Assembly (NCBI RefSeq): GCF_021353265.1
Contig: NZ_JAJTWU010000004.1
Coordinates: 431,013-495,012 of the forward strand
Origin: Pelomonas cellulosilytica
Lineage (GTDB): Bacteria; Pseudomonadota; Gammaproteobacteria; Burkholderiales; Burkholderiaceae_C
Reading direction: 5' to 3'
Length of the DNA stretch: 64,000 bases
A program made the position numbers and the translations under genes. Under the pieces are notes generated by a model. It did not search any database. It saw only the letters and a program-made list of their open reading frames with translations, and was not told where the DNA came from. Below are positions 52,544 to 58,523 of the stretch, one piece after another (the stretch's first letter is position 1; every line of letters begins with the position of its first letter).

Positions 52544-52706
52544 TCCGAGAGGCAGCAGGCACGGCGCCGGGCCGCTTGCAAGCCGGTCCGCCATGACGCG
52601 GCCATGACGGTTTGCCGGCGGTTCGACGCCGCTTGCATCGCTGCCCTCCGCGGGGGGGGCCGACCCGAGGCGCCCGCGTTCAGCACGGCGCCACTGGACA
52701 TGCGAA

Positions 52707-53549
52707 TCAGTTGAACACGCCTTGCCGAAGCCACTTCGTCGCCACCCACTTCTCGCCGTCGACGACGGGCGAGCCACCATGCAGCGTCTGCGTGGACGGG
52801 TGCGGCCGGTCGTAGCTGAAGAACACCGCGTTGCCCTTGACGGGAGCGACGTCCAGGCCGATGTCCGGGAAGATCGTGGAGCCGCCGGCGCCCGGCGTGT
52901 TCAGGTAGATGACCAGCGTGCCCACGCGCTGGCCGCCCCGCTTGAGGATGTTGGGCGTGCTGACGTGGCCGGGGTCGAAATAGTCGTAGTGCGGCTGGTA
53001 TTCCGCGCCCGGGCGGTAGCGCAGCACCTGCAGGCCTTCGCCGTGGTCCAGCGGCCAGCGCAGCAGGGTGGCGATGCGCGACTCGACGCGACGGATCAGG
53101 TCCGTCTCGCAGCGCTCGAAGAACATGCCGTCGCTGGTGCGCGCGGCATTGACCTCGCTGCCATCAGTGCCGGTGGCGACCGTCTCGGAGCGCGCCAGCC
53201 GCTTGGTGGCCAATGCCACGATGCCGTCGCACTCGTCCTCGGACAGCAGGTCCGCAAAGACGACGACGCGCGGCTGGCGCAGCGCCATGACGACCTTGAC
53301 CTGGCGGTCACCGGCATCCACCACCGGGGCGAAGCGGCTAAGGTCCGGCTCCGGCATGCCGGGCGTCGTGCCGTGCTGATCGTTGGGTGTGGTGGCCTGC
53401 CCCAGCGTACGGGCCAGCGCCTGTCGCGCGATGGACTCGTCCCAGCCGCTGCCCAGCATGGCCGCCAGGATGCTCTCGGACGGGTGGCCGGCGCGGGTCT
53501 GCTCGGCGATCCACTCGCACAGCTCGGGGGTGATGACTTGTTGACTCAT
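52707..53549 (-). CDS. 2-oxoglutarate/Fe(II) prolyl 4-hydroxylase-like oxygenase
   Basis: 280 aa. The N-terminal part is a helical region of unknown role. From about residue 90 comes a P4H-type domain: VVVFADLLSEDECDGIVAL, the Fe ligands His and Asp in YQPHYDYFDPG near 188, and the distal His in STQTLHGGSPVVDGEKW near 257, followed by ATKWLRQ, where Lys would bind 2-oxoglutarate. It hydroxylates a protein or peptide residue; the target is unknown. Its start overlaps the yaaA stop by 4 nt. Confidence 0.88.
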   Translation of the reverse strand: MSQQVITPELCEWIAEQTRAGHPSESILAAMLGSGWDESIARQALARTLGQATTPNDQHGTTPGMPEPDLSRFAPVVDAGDRQVKVVMALRQPRVVVFADLLSEDECDGIVALATKRLARSETVATGTDGSEVNAARTSDGMFFERCETDLIRRVESRIATLLRWPLDHGEGLQVLRYRPGAEYQPHYDYFDPGHVSTPNILKRGGQRVGTLVIYLNTPGAGGSTIFPDIGLDVAPVKGNAVFFSYDRPHPSTQTLHGGSPVVDGEKWVATKWLRQGVFN

Positions 53550-54325
53550 GACTTGCGACGGAAGACGAGGCGCTCGGGCGTCGACACCTCGGTAGCGAGA
53601 CGATAGCCGTCCAGGTTGAAGGCCTGGAGTCCTTCAGGCGTTTCCAGCCGCTGCTGGATGGCGAAGCGCGCCATCAGCCCACGGGCGCGCTTGGCGAAGA
53701 AGCTGATGATCTTGTAGTCGCCGTTCTTCCAGTCCTCGAACTGGCATTCGATAACGCGCGGCTTCAGCACGGCGCGGTCGGCAGCGCGGAAGTATTCCTG
53801 CGACGCCAGGTTCACGATGACCGGCACCTTCTGTGCCTTGGCCGCCCGGTTCAGGTGCTCCGCGAGGCGGTCGCCCCACCAGTCGTACAGGCTGGCACCC
53901 GCCGGCGTCGCCAGCCGCGTGCCCATTTCCAGCCGGTAAGGCTGCATGCGGTCCAGCGGGCGCAAGATGCCGTACAGCCCCGACAGCATGCGCACATGTT
54001 GCTGCGCCCAGGCGATGTCATCCTCGGAAAGCGTCTTCGCGTCCAGCCCGTCGTAGACGTCGCCATTGAAGGCCAGCACGGCCGGCTTGCTGTTCCTGTC
54101 GGTGAAGCGAGGCCGCCAGGCCTGGTAGCGCTCGACGTTGAGCTGGGCCAGCGGCTCCGAGAGATCCATCAACGCGCGCACATCGTCGACGGTCTTGGTG
54201 CGCAGGATGTCGATCAGCGCGGCGGTGTCGTCGAGGAACTGCGGGCGGGTCAGCGAGTCGGCCAGCCCGGGTGGCGTAGGGGTGTCGTAATCGAGCGACT
54301 TGGCGGGGGACAGCAAGAACAGCAT
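53546..54325 (-). CDS. yaaA: YaaA family peroxide-stress protein
   Basis: 259 aa, the standard length. MLFLLSPAKSLDYDTP at the start and LAFNGDVYDGLDAKTLSEDD near 85 are family signatures, as is HVRMLSGLYGILRPLDRMQP near 107. NLASQEYFRAADR near 172 and KIISFFAKRARGLMARF near 204 are also typical. YaaA lowers intracellular free iron and limits DNA damage under H2O2 stress and can bind DNA. Here it is coupled to an Fe(II) oxygenase gene, which is a suggestive pairing. Confidence 0.94.
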   Translation of the reverse strand: MLFLLSPAKSLDYDTPTPPGLADSLTRPQFLDDTAALIDILRTKTVDDVRALMDLSEPLAQLNVERYQAWRPRFTDRNSKPAVLAFNGDVYDGLDAKTLSEDDIAWAQQHVRMLSGLYGILRPLDRMQPYRLEMGTRLATPAGASLYDWWGDRLAEHLNRAAKAQKVPVIVNLASQEYFRAADRAVLKPRVIECQFEDWKNGDYKIISFFAKRARGLMARFAIQQRLETPEGLQAFNLDGYRLATEVSTPERLVFRRKS

Positions 54326-54361
54326 GGGCGCGGATTTTGGCGCCTGTTTGCCGCCTCGCCG

Positions 54362-54991
54362 TCAGCTGCGGGCGCCGACGTCGTTGAAGCGGTCCAGCGA
54401 GTACAACACCGCGGCCACCACCACCGCAGCCACGGGACCGGAAGCCGGCAGCAGCAGCGTGGCAACGACGGGCACGACCAGCACCAGCTGGCGCAGGCCC
54501 ACGCCGTACAGCACGCCGGCGCGGCGCACATAGCGCACGCCCGCGCCCGTCCATCGCGCCCTCGCCTCCGAATCGACCGGCATGCCGCCGATGAAGCCGG
54601 CGTGGTTGTAGAAGCGCACGGCCATCATGCTCGACACCAGCGACGCGAACAGCAGCGCCAGCAGCACCAGTTCCAGAACCAGCCGCGGCCCGAGCGTCGC
54701 CGGGCCACCAGCGGCATCGAACCCCTCGTGCAGCGATGGCGCCGCCAGCGAGACCGTGCCCATCAAGGCCAGCGCGGCCGTGGAGGCCAGCATCGTGGCG
54801 GACATCAGCGAGTTGCGCAGCGTCTGTACTGCCAGCACCTCCGAGCCCTTCTGCACGGAGACAACGCGGAACCACTCCTCGCGCAGGCCGGCATGCCGGG
54901 CCAGGGCCAGGCTCTGCGGCAACACGAGCACGGCCTCGTAAAGCGCGAGCACCGCCAGCGTCAGCCCGACCCAGACCCAGTCCGCCTGCAT
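54362..54991 (-). CDS. DUF599 family membrane protein
   Basis: 209 aa with about four membrane helices: VWVGLTLAVLALYEAVLVLP, AVQTLRNSLMSATMLASTAA, LVLELVLLALLFASLVSSMM and a C-terminal one. The RNSLMSATMLAS and SMMAVRFYNHAGFIGGMP motifs are typical of DUF599. Function is unknown. It lies 3 bp after the YeeE/YedE gene and 36 bp before yaaA, so it may be co-transcribed with the sulfur genes. Confidence 0.85.
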   Translation of the reverse strand: MQADWVWVGLTLAVLALYEAVLVLPQSLALARHAGLREEWFRVVSVQKGSEVLAVQTLRNSLMSATMLASTAALALMGTVSLAAPSLHEGFDAAGGPATLGPRLVLELVLLALLFASLVSSMMAVRFYNHAGFIGGMPVDSEARARWTGAGVRYVRRAGVLYGVGLRQLVLVVPVVATLLLPASGPVAAVVVAAVLYSLDRFNDVGARS

Positions 54992-54994
54992 GGC

Positions 54995-55411
54995 TCAGCC
55001 CCGGCGGCGTTCGAGCAGCTCAAACACGCCCATGCCGGCGAGCATGGCCGCGACGAAGACCACGGCCTTCAGCTCTCCCATGCCCAGCGCCACCAGCGCG
55101 GGCCCCGGGCAGAAGCCAGCCAGCCCCCAGCCGACACCGAACAGCAGGCTGCCGACCACCAGCCGGCGGTCGATGGCGGTCGCCGTCGGCAGCTGCAGCG
55201 TCGCGCCGAGCAGCGTGGCCTTGCGCCGCCGGGCGAGCGCGAATGCGACCAGCCCGATGGCGATGGCCCCCACCATGACCAACGCGAGCGACGGGTCCCA
55301 GGCCCCGGCCAGGTCGAGAAAGCCCATCACCTTGGCCGGGCTGGCCATGCCCGAGAGGATGAGGCCGAGGCCGAACACGAGGCCGGCGAGCAAAGCGGTG
55401 AGCACAGGCAT
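54995..55411 (-). CDS. YeeE/YedE half-transporter, C-terminal type
   Basis: 138 aa from ATG 55411. It has three to four membrane helices: PVLTALLAGLVFGLGLILSG, then WDPSLALVMVGAIAIGLVAF and LVVGSLLFGVGWGLAGFCPG, ending KAVVFVAAMLAGMGVFELLE. The conserved Cys in GFCPGPALVALG lies at the expected thiosulfate-relay position. It pairs with the next gene to form a full YeeE-like channel for thiosulfate or other sulfur species. The two genes are 10 bp apart. Confidence 0.88.
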   Translation of the reverse strand: MPVLTALLAGLVFGLGLILSGMASPAKVMGFLDLAGAWDPSLALVMVGAIAIGLVAFALARRRKATLLGATLQLPTATAIDRRLVVGSLLFGVGWGLAGFCPGPALVALGMGELKAVVFVAAMLAGMGVFELLERRRG

Positions 55412-55421
55412 GGCGATTCCC

Positions 55422-55856
55422 TCAGAAGCCCAGCAGGTGCCGAAGCACGAACACGGTGACGAAGCCGGCCCCCATGAAGGCCAGCGTGGCCACCAGCGAA
55501 CGCGGCGACAGGCGGGACAGGCCGCAGACGCCGTGGCCACTGGTGCAGCCGGCGCCGTAGCGCGTGCCCACGCCCACCAGCAGCCCGGCAAGAACCAGCG
55601 CGCCCCAGCCCGCGTCGATGCGCGGCAACGGCACAACCGTGAACAGCCCGTAGGCCAGCGGCGCGGCGATCAGGCCCAGCAGGAAGGCCAGGCGCCATCC
55701 AATGTCGCCGCCGACCGGCCGGAACAATCCGCCCAGCACGCCGCTGATGCCGGCGATGCGGCCGTTCAGAAGCACGAACAGCGCCGCCGCGACGCCGATG
55801 AGCAGGCCGCCCGCCAGCGACGCCAGCGGCGTGAAGGCGTTCCAGTCGATGTTCAT
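55422..55856 (-). CDS. YeeE/YedE half-transporter, N-terminal type
   Basis: 144 aa from ATG 55856. Helices: [20 protein letters not shown], then [20 protein letters not shown] and [20 protein letters not shown]. The motif [20 protein letters not shown] holds the two conserved Cys of YeeE halves that relay thiosulfate. It lies 4 bp after the BigR-type regulator gene. Bacterial bigR operons carry such transporters to move sulfur out when H2S or persulfides build up. Confidence 0.9.
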
Positions 55857-55860
55857 CGGT

Positions 55861-56187
55861 TCACTCCTTCGGGCAGTAGAGGTCGTAGAGCACAGCCAGC
55901 ACCTGCAGCAGGCGGGCATCGGCGACGCTGTAGAAGATGCGCTTGCCGTCGCGGCGCGTGTCGACGACGCCCTCCGCGCGCAACACCGCCAGCTGTTGCG
56001 ACAGCGTGGGCTGGCGGATGCCCAGCGCCTCTTCGAGGTCGCCGACGGACATCTCGCCCTGCGACAGCTGGCACAGCAGCAGCAGACGGTCTTCGTTGGC
56101 CAGCACCTTCAAGGCGCCGACCGCCTGGCCAGCGGCCTGGCGCAGCATGTCGGGATGGATGACGGCGTTGGACATGACGGGTTGCAA
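55861..56187 (-). CDS. bigR: BigR/SqrR-type ArsR-family persulfide sensor
   Basis: 108 aa with a winged HTH of the ArsR family ([40 protein letters not shown]). Two cysteines lie at residues 39 ([12 protein letters not shown]) and 105 (LYDLYCPKE). Their 66-residue separation equals that of the Cys pairs in BigR (42/108) and SqrR (41/107), which form a tetrasulfide link on sulfide exposure and release DNA. The start may be either ATG in MQPVMSN. It heads the sulfur transporter genes and is divergent from blh. Confidence 0.88.
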
Positions 56188-56191
56188 TAAG

Positions 56192-56236
56192 TTGACTTCA
56201 CTTTATCAATCAATAAAATGTCAGTCAATAGATTGA
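56192..56236. promoter_or_regulatory. Divergent bigR/blh promoters with shared operator
   Basis: Plus strand: TTGACT (56192-56197), 16 bp, TAAAAT (56214-56219), driving blh. Minus strand: TTGACT (56223-56228), 17 bp, TAAAGT (56200-56205), driving bigR. The inverted repeats TTATCAATCAATAA (56203-56216) and TCAATAGATTGA (56225-56236) overlap these elements. One BigR dimer site could repress both directions. Confidence 0.65.
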
Positions 56237-56253
56237 ACCAACGAGGATCCACC

Positions 56254-57132
56254 ATGGCCACCAGCACCACCGTCCAGGCCTTCTTCGACGACAAGACCTT
56301 CACGGTCTCCTACGTCATCGCCGACAGCGCGAGCCGTTGCGCCGCCATCGTTGACCCTGTGCTGGACTTCGATTTCAAGTCCGGCCGCACCAGCACCGTC
56401 CAGGCCGACCGGCTGCTCGCCTACGTCCGCGAGCACGGCCTCACGGTGCAGTGGATCCTGGAGACGCATGCCCACGCCGACCACCTGTCCAGCGCCCGCT
56501 ACCTGCAGGAGCACGTCGGTGGCCGCATCGCCATCGGCGAGCGCATCCGCGAGGTCCAGGCAACGTTCAAGAAGCTCTACAACCTGGAGCGAAACTTCCT
56601 GCCCGACGGCGCGCAGTTCGACCACCTCTTCAAGGACGAAGAGGTGTTCCACATCGGCGACATCGAGGCCCGCGCGCTGCTGGTGCCGGGCCACACGCCG
56701 GCCGACATGGCCTACGTCACCGACGGCACGGTGTTCGTCGGCGACACGCTCTTCATGCCCGACATCGGAACGGCGCGCGCGGACTTCCCCGGTGGCGACG
56801 CACACACGCTGTACGCCTCCATGCGCCGCATCCTGGCACTGCCGCCACAGACGCGCATGTTCGTCTGCCATGACTACCCGCCGGCCGGCCGCGCACCCGC
56901 CTGGGAGACCACCGTGGCCGAGCAGCGCGCCAGCAACATCCACGTGCGCGACGGCATCACCGAGGCCGAGTTCGTGAGCATGCGCAAGGCCCGCGACGCC
57001 ACGCTGGACGTGCCGGCGTTGATCCTGCCGTCCATCCAGATCAACATCCGCGCCGGCCAGCTGCCGCCGGCCGAGGGCGATGGCGTCAGCTACCTGAAGA
57101 TCCCGCTTAACGTGCTGGGCGGCAGCGCATGA
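56254..57132 (+). CDS. blh: Blh-type persulfide dioxygenase (metallo-beta-lactamase fold)
   Basis: 292 aa from ATG 56254, with GAGGA 8 nt upstream (an in-frame ATG at 56218 lies inside the promoter and is less likely). Metal site: LETHAHADHLSSARYL near residue 72, VPGHTPADMAYV near 149, FVGDTLFMPDIGTARADFPG near 165 and FVCHDYPPAG near 206. These are ETHE1/Blh persulfide dioxygenase positions binding one Fe(II). It oxidises glutathione persulfide to sulfite. It is divergent from bigR and would be induced by sulfide. Confidence 0.9.
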   Translation: MATSTTVQAFFDDKTFTVSYVIADSASRCAAIVDPVLDFDFKSGRTSTVQADRLLAYVREHGLTVQWILETHAHADHLSSARYLQEHVGGRIAIGERIREVQATFKKLYNLERNFLPDGAQFDHLFKDEEVFHIGDIEARALLVPGHTPADMAYVTDGTVFVGDTLFMPDIGTARADFPGGDAHTLYASMRRILALPPQTRMFVCHDYPPAGRAPAWETTVAEQRASNIHVRDGITEAEFVSMRKARDATLDVPALILPSIQINIRAGQLPPAEGDGVSYLKIPLNVLGGSA

Positions 57133-57151
57133 AAAAACCCCGCCTCTGGGG
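57132..57151 (-). terminator. Weak terminator after tolC
   Basis: Plus-strand CCCC (57138-57141) and GGGG (57148-57151) flank a 6-nt loop. On the minus strand the stem is followed by a six-T run. It lies about 20 bp after the tolC stop, in the convergent gap with blh. Confidence 0.45.
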
Positions 57152-57173
57152 GGCGCTGGCAGGCGGCAGGCGC

Positions 57174-58523
57174 TTACCTGGCCAGCAGCGTGTTGACGGC
57201 GCTAAGGTCTTCCGAGCGCAGCTGGCCCGAGGCCTGGCGCAGCTTGAGACTGTTCACCACGACGTCGTACCGGGCCTTGGCCAGGTCGCGCTGCGTGGTG
57301 TAGAGCTGCGTCTGCGCGTTCAGCACATCCAGGTTGACGCGCACGCCGACCTTGTAGCCGAGCTGCGTCGCTTCCAGCGCGAGCTTGGTGGACGATTCCG
57401 CCGCCTCGTAGGCGCTCACCTGGGCCTTCAGCGACTGCACGCCGAAGAAGGCGCGGCGCGTGGCCTCGGCGACGCTGCGGCGGGCGTAGTCGAGATCGTT
57501 GCGGGCCTTTTCCTCCAGCACCAACGTTTCCTTGATGCGGTTCTGCGTCAGGCCGCCGGTATAAAGCGGGTAGCTCAGCGTCAGGCCGATGCTGGCCGTC
57601 TTGGTCGTGCCGACGCCGGACGCCGTGGCGGCCGCGCCGTTGAGGTTGTTGTGCAGGTTCTGCCCACCGATCTGCGCGTTGGCATCCAGCGTCGGCCTGT
57701 CCGCGGCGCGGGCGATCTGCGTGTCCAGCTGCGCCACCTCCAGGCCCAGTCGCGCCTTGCGAATGGCCGGATGCTGCTCATCACCTGTGGCGACCCAGGT
57801 GTCGACGTTGTCGCTGGGCAGCGCGGGCAGCGCCACCGGCTGGGCCAGCGGCTTGGGCTCCACGCCGACTCGGCCGACGAACTGATCCAGCGTGACGCGC
57901 TTGACGCGCAGGTCGTTGTCGGCGGCCAGTTCCTGCGCGACCGCCAGGTCGTACTTGGCCTGGGCTTCACGCGTGTCGGTGATGGTGGCGGTGCCGACCT
58001 CGAAATTGCGCTTGGCCGAGGCCAGTTGCTCGGCGATGGCGGTCTTGTTGGCCTGCGTCGTCGACAGCGCATCCTTGGCGGCCAGCACGTCGAAATAGGC
58101 GGTCGCCAGACGGACGATCAGGTCCTGCTCGGCGGACTCCAGGTCGGCCTGCGTGGCCTCGTAGGCACGGCGGGCCTTGTCGATGGTCGGCAGGTTGGCG
58201 GCGTTGTAGACCGAGTACTTGCCCTGCAAACCAGCCGTCAGCGTGCGCGCGTTGAGCGCGTTGCCGCTGCCGGGCGGGTCGGTGCGGGCCTGGGTGCCCG
58301 TGGCGGCCAGCCCCAGCGACGGCCGCGTCAGTGCCTCGGCCTGCGCGGCGCGCGCGGCAGCAGCGTCGGCGCTGGCCCTGGTCGCGAGGTAGGTCGCGTC
58401 ATAGCCCCGCGCGGCGTCGTACAGCTCCTGCAGGCTCTGCGCCTGCGCCGCGCCCGCGAGCAAGAGGCCGGCGGCAAGGGCCAGCGGTTGCAGGATCAGG
58501 CGTGGGGCGTTGACGAGGGGCAT
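57174..58523 (-). CDS. tolC: TolC family outer membrane efflux channel
   Basis: 449 aa with a signal peptide (LALAAGLLLAGAAQAQS). The two-fold OEP repeat is visible: SLQELYDAARGYDATYLATR, LTAGLQGKYSVYNAANLPTI and DLIVRLATAYFDVLAAKDAL near 145 in the first half. SIGLTLSYPLYTGGLTQNRI near 310 and LNAQTQLYTTQRDLAKARYD near 410 are in the second. It forms the trimeric exit duct for RND, MFS or ABC efflux and type I secretion. It is preceded on the same strand by an isoaspartyl methyltransferase gene, a common order in Burkholderiales. The TetR gene lies upstream of both. Confidence 0.93.
   Translation of the reverse strand: MPLVNAPRLILQPLALAAGLLLAGAAQAQSLQELYDAARGYDATYLATRASADAAAARAAQAEALTRPSLGLAATGTQARTDPPGSGNALNARTLTAGLQGKYSVYNAANLPTIDKARRAYEATQADLESAEQDLIVRLATAYFDVLAAKDALSTTQANKTAIAEQLASAKRNFEVGTATITDTREAQAKYDLAVAQELAADNDLRVKRVTLDQFVGRVGVEPKPLAQPVALPALPSDNVDTWVATGDEQHPAIRKARLGLEVAQLDTQIARAADRPTLDANAQIGGQNLHNNLNGAAATASGVGTTKTASIGLTLSYPLYTGGLTQNRIKETLVLEEKARNDLDYARRSVAEATRRAFFGVQSLKAQVSAYEAAESSTKLALEATQLGYKVGVRVNLDVLNAQTQLYTTQRDLAKARYDVVVNSLKLRQASGQLRSEDLSAVNTLLAR

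Follow-up and report, generated by a model that had tools for sequence, protein, structure and literature searches.

How can one small repressor govern two groups of genes that are read in opposite directions, and how far does its control reach along the longer group? This question is raised by a locus of Pelomonas cellulosilytica (genome of 6.35 Mb; Pelomonas/Roseateles group), in which an ArsR-type regulator gene is followed by genes for membrane proteins and faces a gene for a predicted persulfide dioxygenase. The locus was analysed within a window of 64,000 nucleotides (the whole stretch of DNA under study), where genes were named from their Pfam and NCBIfam profile matches (Table 1). The window was then compared with loci of relatives: 141 loci with the sensor were collected, of which 11 with identical upstream DNA were dropped and 130 kept; they were picked by similarity to the sensor of the window and are not independent by descent. 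Loci bear our own numbers (prefix L).

Table 1. Features of the locus (positions in the window; a dot stands for features without strand)
Feature	Position	Strand	Basis
SqrR/BigR-type ArsR repressor (sensor), 104 aa, C35 and C101	55861-56175	-	Pfam HTH_5; PDB match BigR 3pqj; NF040642
YeeE/YedE half-transporter A (yeeA)	55422-55856	-	PF04143, 22.7 bits, below cut-off of 27
YeeE/YedE half-transporter B (yeeB, DUF6691)	54995-55411	-	PF20398, 206.6 bits; PF04143, 27.2 bits, above cut-off of 27
DUF599 membrane protein, module-specific subfamily	54362-54991	-	PF04654, 96.2 bits, above cut-off of 27
yaaA; neighbour, probably outside the module	53546-54325	-	
2OG-Fe(II) (prolyl 4-hydroxylase-like) gene; neighbour, probably outside the module	52707-53549	-	PF13640
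Persulfide dioxygenase of the MBL fold, stand-alone, lacking a sulfurtransferase domain	56254-57132	+	NF040641, positions 140-423 only; PDB 4ysk
Predicted operator palindrome ACTTTAT-N6-ATAAAAT; arms are both -10 boxes	56200-56219	.	Weight matrices over relatives
Predicted promoter of the dioxygenase arm, TTGACT-16-TAAAAT	56192-56219	+	Promoter scan
Predicted promoter of the sensor-transporter arm, TTGACT-17-TAAAGT	56200-56228	-	Promoter scan
Second perfect palindrome TCAATAGATTGA, possible second site	56225-56236	.	Read from the sequence

The sensor contains exactly two cysteines, 66 residues apart, a spacing that an earlier sequence-only reading of this DNA had likened to that of BigR and SqrR. 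The likeness is confirmed by alignment: C35 and C101 coincide with both cysteines of Xylella fastidiosa BigR (3pqj, the best PDB match, E 7e-25) and with both cysteines of 13ct/6o8l, another ArsR regulator that we take to be SqrR. Both residues are kept in 129 of the 130 homologous loci, the remaining row being a gap in the read, with a spacing of 66 in 127 loci and of 67 in 2. The ArsR winged helix is also found (HTH_5, 52.3 bits against a cut-off of 22), and the assignment as a dithiol ArsR sensor of the SqrR/BigR type is well supported. The gene starts with ATG, although an alternative TTG start is possible at 56187.

Reactions of such cysteine pairs with sulfur species have been reported for several regulators. 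According to the accessible text of PMC9774590, C41-C107 of SqrR and C42-C108 of BigR react with sulfide or persulfide, and SqrR bridges C41 and C107. A sulfur bridge is also described for the cysteine pair of SoxR (PMC12423496, accessible in part), and for YgaV the accessible portion of PMC9774250 gives oxidation of the pair by sulfide, together with a pentasulfide in the Acinetobacter baumannii protein. In A. baumannii, BigR, with C34 and C100, controls yeeE-yedE-pdo2 (PMC7315123, from the part available). By analogy with these proteins, we infer that the sensor described here responds to sulfide. It is very unlikely that this ArsR protein senses something else (a metal, arsenic or peroxide) and that the sulfur genes lie beside it by coincidence. 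Such a role would fit its score against the metalloregulator subfamily NF033788 (87 bits, above the cut-off of 55) and the existence of peroxide-sensing ArsR proteins such as RexT; against it stand the dithiol pair at SqrR/BigR spacing and the sulfur genes that mostly adjoin the sensor, both half-transporters lying behind it in 119 of the 130 loci.

On the other arm, the protein carries a metallo-beta-lactamase domain (PF00753, 64.7 bits) and the sequence THAHADH, presumably the metal motif of the MBL fold. Its PDB matches include 4ysk (E 3e-111), which we take to be a characterised dioxygenase, and human ETHE1 (4chl, E 5e-15). By its fold, metal motif and relatives, it can be classed as a predicted ETHE1-like MBL persulfide dioxygenase. 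The Blh model NF040641, which comprises a sulfurtransferase and a dioxygenase half (625 bits), is matched with 406 bits and over its dioxygenase part only. The genome holds one full-length match to the dioxygenase half, while the sulfurtransferase half (Blh model positions 4-104) is encoded separately, by a gene on a different contig whose neighbours look by eye unrelated to sulfur. The sensor, in turn, reaches 107.4 bits with the BigR equivalog NF040642, under the curated cut-off of 155. Because of this shortfall and of the missing sulfurtransferase half, the names BigR and Blh hold as family resemblance and not under the NCBI definitions.

Between the two arms, two sigma-70-like promoters face each other within 37 bp (56192-56228), with predicted starts 33 bp apart. 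The -35 and -10 boxes lie at 56192-56197 and 56214-56219 on the forward strand, and at 56228-56223 and 56205-56200 on the reverse strand. These two are the only promoter-like sites in the 4.7 kb from 52600 to 57300, where shuffled sequences give 0.2. Inverted repeats are formed by the outer TTGACT/AGTCAA, by the inner TTTAT/ATAAA, and by the perfect palindrome TCAATAGATTGA at 56225-56236. A and T make up 73% of 56188-56236 but 31% of the window; only 6 of about 64,000 49-mers in the window are as AT-rich, and all of them overlap this segment. Promoter scan, repeats and composition confirm the observation of overlapping, divergent promoter-like elements and inverted AT-rich repeats in 56192-56236. 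The centre of TCAATAGATTGA lies 21 bp, or two helical turns, from that of the operator, on the dioxygenase side only. A counterpart with the same centre (at least 4 of 6 positions) occurs in a minority of the loci with a divergent dioxygenase pair (28 of 87), and TCAATAGATTGA could be a second site for the sensor.

Relatives share a feature of this intergenic region. A palindrome with the consensus ATTATAT-N6-ATATAAT was first spotted by aligning by eye the regions upstream of their sensor genes, the copy of the window falling at 56200-56219, and was then described by a symmetric weight matrix. An operator of at least 12 bits is present in 119 of the 130 loci and missing from the other 11, while 0.3% of dinucleotide shuffles reach this score; the operator of the window is among the weaker ones (18.3 bits by the full matrix). 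Since the training loci of the matrix were also those that it scored, three further checks were made. When the genus was left out of training (the training sites themselves having come from the full model), the top place in the 64 kb went to 56200-56219 at 26.8 bits, followed by the overlapping 56215-56234 (20.5 bits), the best non-overlapping site reaching 6.5 bits. The unchanged matrix finds an operator in 20 of 25 held-out loci of the order (260 nt scanned per locus; the training locus L254 excluded), against 1% of mononucleotide shuffles. Away from the region upstream of the sensor, the score is attained at only 3 of 811,796 positions, scanned in 60 of the 141 loci. Five held-out loci have no site within the 260 nt. 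In two of them (L277 and L278), the sensor gene comes last, behind the transporters, and a 23-bit site lies about 1 kb from it, near the divergent dioxygenase; L273 has only 13 bits, elsewhere, and L261 and L265 remain under 11 bits.

The palindrome is also found well beyond these relatives: before blh-bigR in a Bosea plasmid (L279; BigR annotated by NCBI), in a matching Sinorhizobium locus, and on an Acinetobacter plasmid, next to the sensor gene. Its presence at the Bosea and Sinorhizobium BigR loci suggests that it is most likely the operator of the whole BigR kind. An Escherichia coli plasmid (L281; CP077244.1) carries a BigR-type regulator with a palindrome of 24.6 bits and a divergent FAD-dependent oxidoreductase gene alongside. 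A wider regulon in the genome of P. cellulosilytica was sought and rejected, as two pattern scans gave its own site and otherwise chance-level places only (2 places against 4 for a reversed-pattern control in one scan, 3 against 1 in the other). With its own operator alone standing out, the switch looks local; a weak site further away is possible.

The position of the palindrome relative to the promoters is what would link the two arms of the module. Each arm of the palindrome reads as the -10 box of its strand, both boxes matching at no fewer than 4 of 6 positions in 118 of the 119 loci with an operator, and many loci have TTGAC to the left and GTCAA to the right of the arms at -35 spacing, the window having TTGACT on both sides. 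A -35 pair with at least 4 of 6 positions in each box is found in 36 of the 87 loci with a divergent dioxygenase and in 8 of the 32 without (1.8% of flank shuffles); at 5 of 6 or better the counts are 21 of 87 and 0 of 32 (0.05%). The operator shared with relatives supports the view that both divergent promoters lie on one palindrome. Within the genus itself, the -35 pair is seen at the lower threshold in only 3 of 14 loci (the window, L031 and L032), and most of the others have a shorter intergenic space with the palindrome alone. In some loci of the genus (L033-L040 and L043), the start codon of the sensor lies about 6-8 nt past its -10 box, so that the sensor message would be leaderless there.

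Another use of the site is conceivable, in which the palindrome would be an operator of the sensor arm only, the outer TTGAC/GTCAA an extension of this operator, and the start of the dioxygenase gene (blh) elsewhere. A palindromic operator yields mirror -10 boxes for free, and loci without blh rarely have the right-hand or the left-hand TTGAC (2 of 32 and 4 of 32, respectively, at 5 of 6 positions or better). The former count is that of the sensor-facing -35 box, and it speaks against the mirrored arrangement because the plain reading would expect this box to be retained when the dioxygenase is absent, although phylogeny is here a confounder. On the other hand, no other promoter-like site was found upstream of blh in the window, and the distant site of L277 and L278 goes with the start of the divergent dioxygenase and not with the sensor gene. 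Three sensor-less members of the genus (L207, L208 and L209) have no operator but keep the dioxygenase gene, divergent from yaaA and about 43-227 bp from it; another start must serve there, and the arguments against a sensor-only operator are thus not decisive. Even so, we regard such an operator as improbable and retain the mirrored arrangement.

The gene content of the relatives indicates which genes belong to the switch. Besides the half-transporters, the divergent dioxygenase accompanies the sensor in 92 of the 130 loci and DUF599 in 32 of them; two loci of another make-up (L041 and L042) have sensor and transporters without a dioxygenase. This layout, kept across many genera, agrees with the claim that the transporter and dioxygenase arms form one module. 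The inclusion of DUF599 in the transporter arm was also borne out, and it involves a particular kind of DUF599. One copy was found in the genome of P. cellulosilytica. In 200 genomes of the family there are 81 high-scoring DUF599 proteins (>150 bits), 19 of middle score (50-150) and 2 fragments. In genomes with the sensor, which come from a separate, overlapping and equally large draw and are not independent by descent, 12 of 14 middle-scoring proteins are encoded within 3.5 kb of it, against 0 of 27 high-scoring (canonical) ones (Fisher p 1.2e-8, a post hoc value, since the scores and matches were already known when the 150-bit cut and the limit of 3.5 kb were set). Seven of the 19 middle-scoring copies lie away from a sensor, two of these in sensor-bearing genomes.

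A tree of DUF599 proteins separates the canonical and module groups by a long, well-supported branch. It has 56 rows, of which the canonical L235, L239, L240 and L251 were disregarded as presumed wrong reading frames, and its alignment left out L135 and L170 (misread) and L177 (out of frame at the end of a contig); the program cautions about long branches, and the tree was used for this split only. The module rows do not form one strict clade (4 label changes). By its scores, neighbourhood and tree position, the DUF599 of the module may be described as a distinct subfamily that belongs to the sensor module. Its place is not invariable, as the gene is on the dioxygenase arm, instead of the transporter arm, in one genome (G068, locus L244). 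In 119 module loci, DUF599 is present in 33, following yeeB in 32 of them and lying on the dioxygenase arm in L117, and a TauE-like gene in 9, in the slot of DUF599, with 0 loci having both and 77 neither. This distribution is suggestive only of two alternatives for one slot (Fisher p 0.061), TauE having been searched by blast, which may miss divergent members; a tenth match (L046) falls in a locus without the transporter pair. In the annotated Bosea and Acinetobacter loci, the sulfite exporter TauE/SafE is part of the module.

The structure of DUF599 was also considered. An AlphaFold model (mean pLDDT 89.5) gave no Foldseek match in the PDB at E <=0.001, and a profile search of PDB sequences gave nothing under E 0.3. 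Aligned with VIA-align, the model had its best Z of 9.6 with NINJ1, and Z of 7.5-8.6 at 12-13% identity with Orai channels. As these values are below the caution level of the tool for helical bundles, no fold or function is claimed for DUF599. A partial survey of the literature, mostly by title, gave no link between DUF599 and BigR-type regulation, and PMC12542790 was discarded as a false match to DUF5993. In Methylobacterium, mutations of a DUF599 protein (EdgA) helped growth on dichloromethane, a role in chloride export being likely in the view of its authors (PMC4271186, accessible portion), and sulfate starvation induces a plant DUF599 gene whose predicted location is the plasma membrane (PMC13349389, as far as its accessible text goes). 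Together with the TauE slot, EdgA and the induction by sulfate starvation make an anion exit a reasonable hypothesis. It is tentatively suggested, as an idea that could well prove wrong, that the DUF599 subfamily might be an anion (sulfite) exit channel in the place of TauE/SafE, both being wired to one mirrored operator-promoter.

The sequence-only reading had extended the transporter arm further, to yaaA and a prolyl hydroxylase gene, and this part did not stand in the same way as DUF599. As gene order the extended arm is present; whether it is a single transcript is a separate question. A six-gene sulfide-inducible operon, bigR-yeeA-yeeB-DUF599-yaaA-hydroxylase, in which YaaA (peroxide stress) and the hydroxylase would be functional members, is favoured by gaps of 10 bp or less from bigR up to DUF599, a gap of 36 bp to yaaA, an overlap of 4 bp between yaaA and the hydroxylase gene, and the absence of any terminator-like site from bigR through the hydroxylase gene in a terminator scan. 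It is also favoured by the match to the last gene of the transporter arm, which stops 23-59 nt short of yaaA in each of the 14 sensor-bearing loci of the genus, and by three members of the genus (L210-L212; yaaA 84, 80 and 67% identical to that of the window), where the yaaA leader differs and other genes, neither transporter arm nor dioxygenase, stand upstream. This operon is nevertheless considered rather unlikely. The sensor is found in 14 of 20 genomes of the genus (E <=1e-25), and yaaA and the hydroxylase gene are near it in 14 of the 130 loci, all of them in the genus and none outside. The six sensor-less members all keep the yaaA-hydroxylase pair with the same flanking genes, and no operator above 1 bit was found in the 8.7-8.8 kb around their yaaA. 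Furthermore, the yaaA start is directly preceded by the same 13 nt, CAAAATCCGCGCC, in 17 of the 20 genomes, where the upstream neighbour is DUF599, yeeB or the divergent dioxygenase, as would be expected of a start signal of yaaA itself. Finally, yaaA and the hydroxylase gene are 270 bp apart, with no overlap, in two members (L034 and L209).

From the retention in sensor-less genomes and the constant leader, the yaaA-hydroxylase pair appears to be there independently of the switch; the two genes are probably neighbours at the level of the genus and not members of the module. CAAAATCCGCGCC may possibly serve as the -10 box of a leaderless yaaA message; the promoter scan of the window detected no full promoter at the yaaA start. 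Read-through into the pair is possible, and would not be specially conserved. Open frames of yaaA of at least 250 codons are found in all 20 genomes. The genome of L209 shows one TAG inside its yaaA match, and that locus carries, by eye, an apparent remnant of yeeB.

We think it likely that the locus is a persulfide-responsive switch with its operator at 56200-56219 and both arms under its control. The reduced sensor would bind 56200-56219 as a dimer, with a footprint predicted to span both promoters. HlyU, a relative of the sensor, protects 35 nt over its palindrome (PMC4330345, in the part accessible); this is close to the 37 bp spanned by the two promoters, and one dimer could therefore cover both. 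The best reading by this analogy is that a single dimer would block both arms, RNA polymerase being kept out in both directions. When persulfides rise, a sulfur bridge would join C35 and C101 and the dimer would let go. Release would turn on the dioxygenase on one side and, on the other, the sensor itself (autoregulation), the YeeE/YedE pair and DUF599; as the promoters overlap, only one polymerase at a time could occupy them, and the arms would be coupled. The dioxygenase would make sulfite, for which DUF599 is a candidate exit. Some read-through may reach yaaA and the hydroxylase gene, which would probably keep a start of their own.

The switch is of a known kind, that of BigR, SqrR and PigS. 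The BigR operon of Xylella, Agrobacterium and Bosea (L279) likewise has a sulfide-linked dithiol ArsR repressor, a dioxygenase, YeeE/YedE proteins and this class of palindrome. In Bosea, however, blh-bigR-yeeE-yeeE-TauE is unidirectional, with the site before blh and a Blh that includes the sulfurtransferase half, whereas in the locus described here two promoters face each other, the dioxygenase has no sulfurtransferase half and DUF599 fills the slot of TauE. The precedent for the gene set is A. baumannii, where the accessible text of PMC7315123 gives cysteines 66 apart, two half-transporters and a stand-alone dioxygenase, but places the dioxygenase inside the transporter operon; in the Acinetobacter plasmid locus (L280), TauE/SafE and rhodanese genes follow. 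The precedent for the layout is PigS of Serratia (Gristwood 2011, known here through citing papers), an ArsR regulator with blhA and sulfur transporters in divergent operons. There, according to the citing papers, loss of PigS raises blhA; unlike here, pigS is under PigP control, and the likeness rests on gene layout. Bidirectional promoters with a shared -10 (Warman et al., PMC12825309, from its accessible part) are likewise pseudo-symmetric, one polymerase excluding the other, and their starts are commonly 18, 10 or 23 bp apart. The locus described here would fall outside this class: the predicted starts are further apart, there are two -10 boxes, 8 bp from each other, and each box doubles as one arm of a repressor site. 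What is new here is this promoter geometry, with a conserved predicted operator in which either arm forms a -10 box, and the dedicated DUF599 subfamily; yaaA and the hydroxylase gene are likely to be removed from the module.

These results are of biological significance because they provide a precise conserved operator for a widespread regulator of sulfide stress, and a compact promoter design in which the arms of the repressor site are both -10 boxes. They also connect DUF599, a family of unknown function, with sulfur detoxification and so open its function to testing. If the proposed anion exit is true, the product of the dioxygenase could leave the cell through DUF599.
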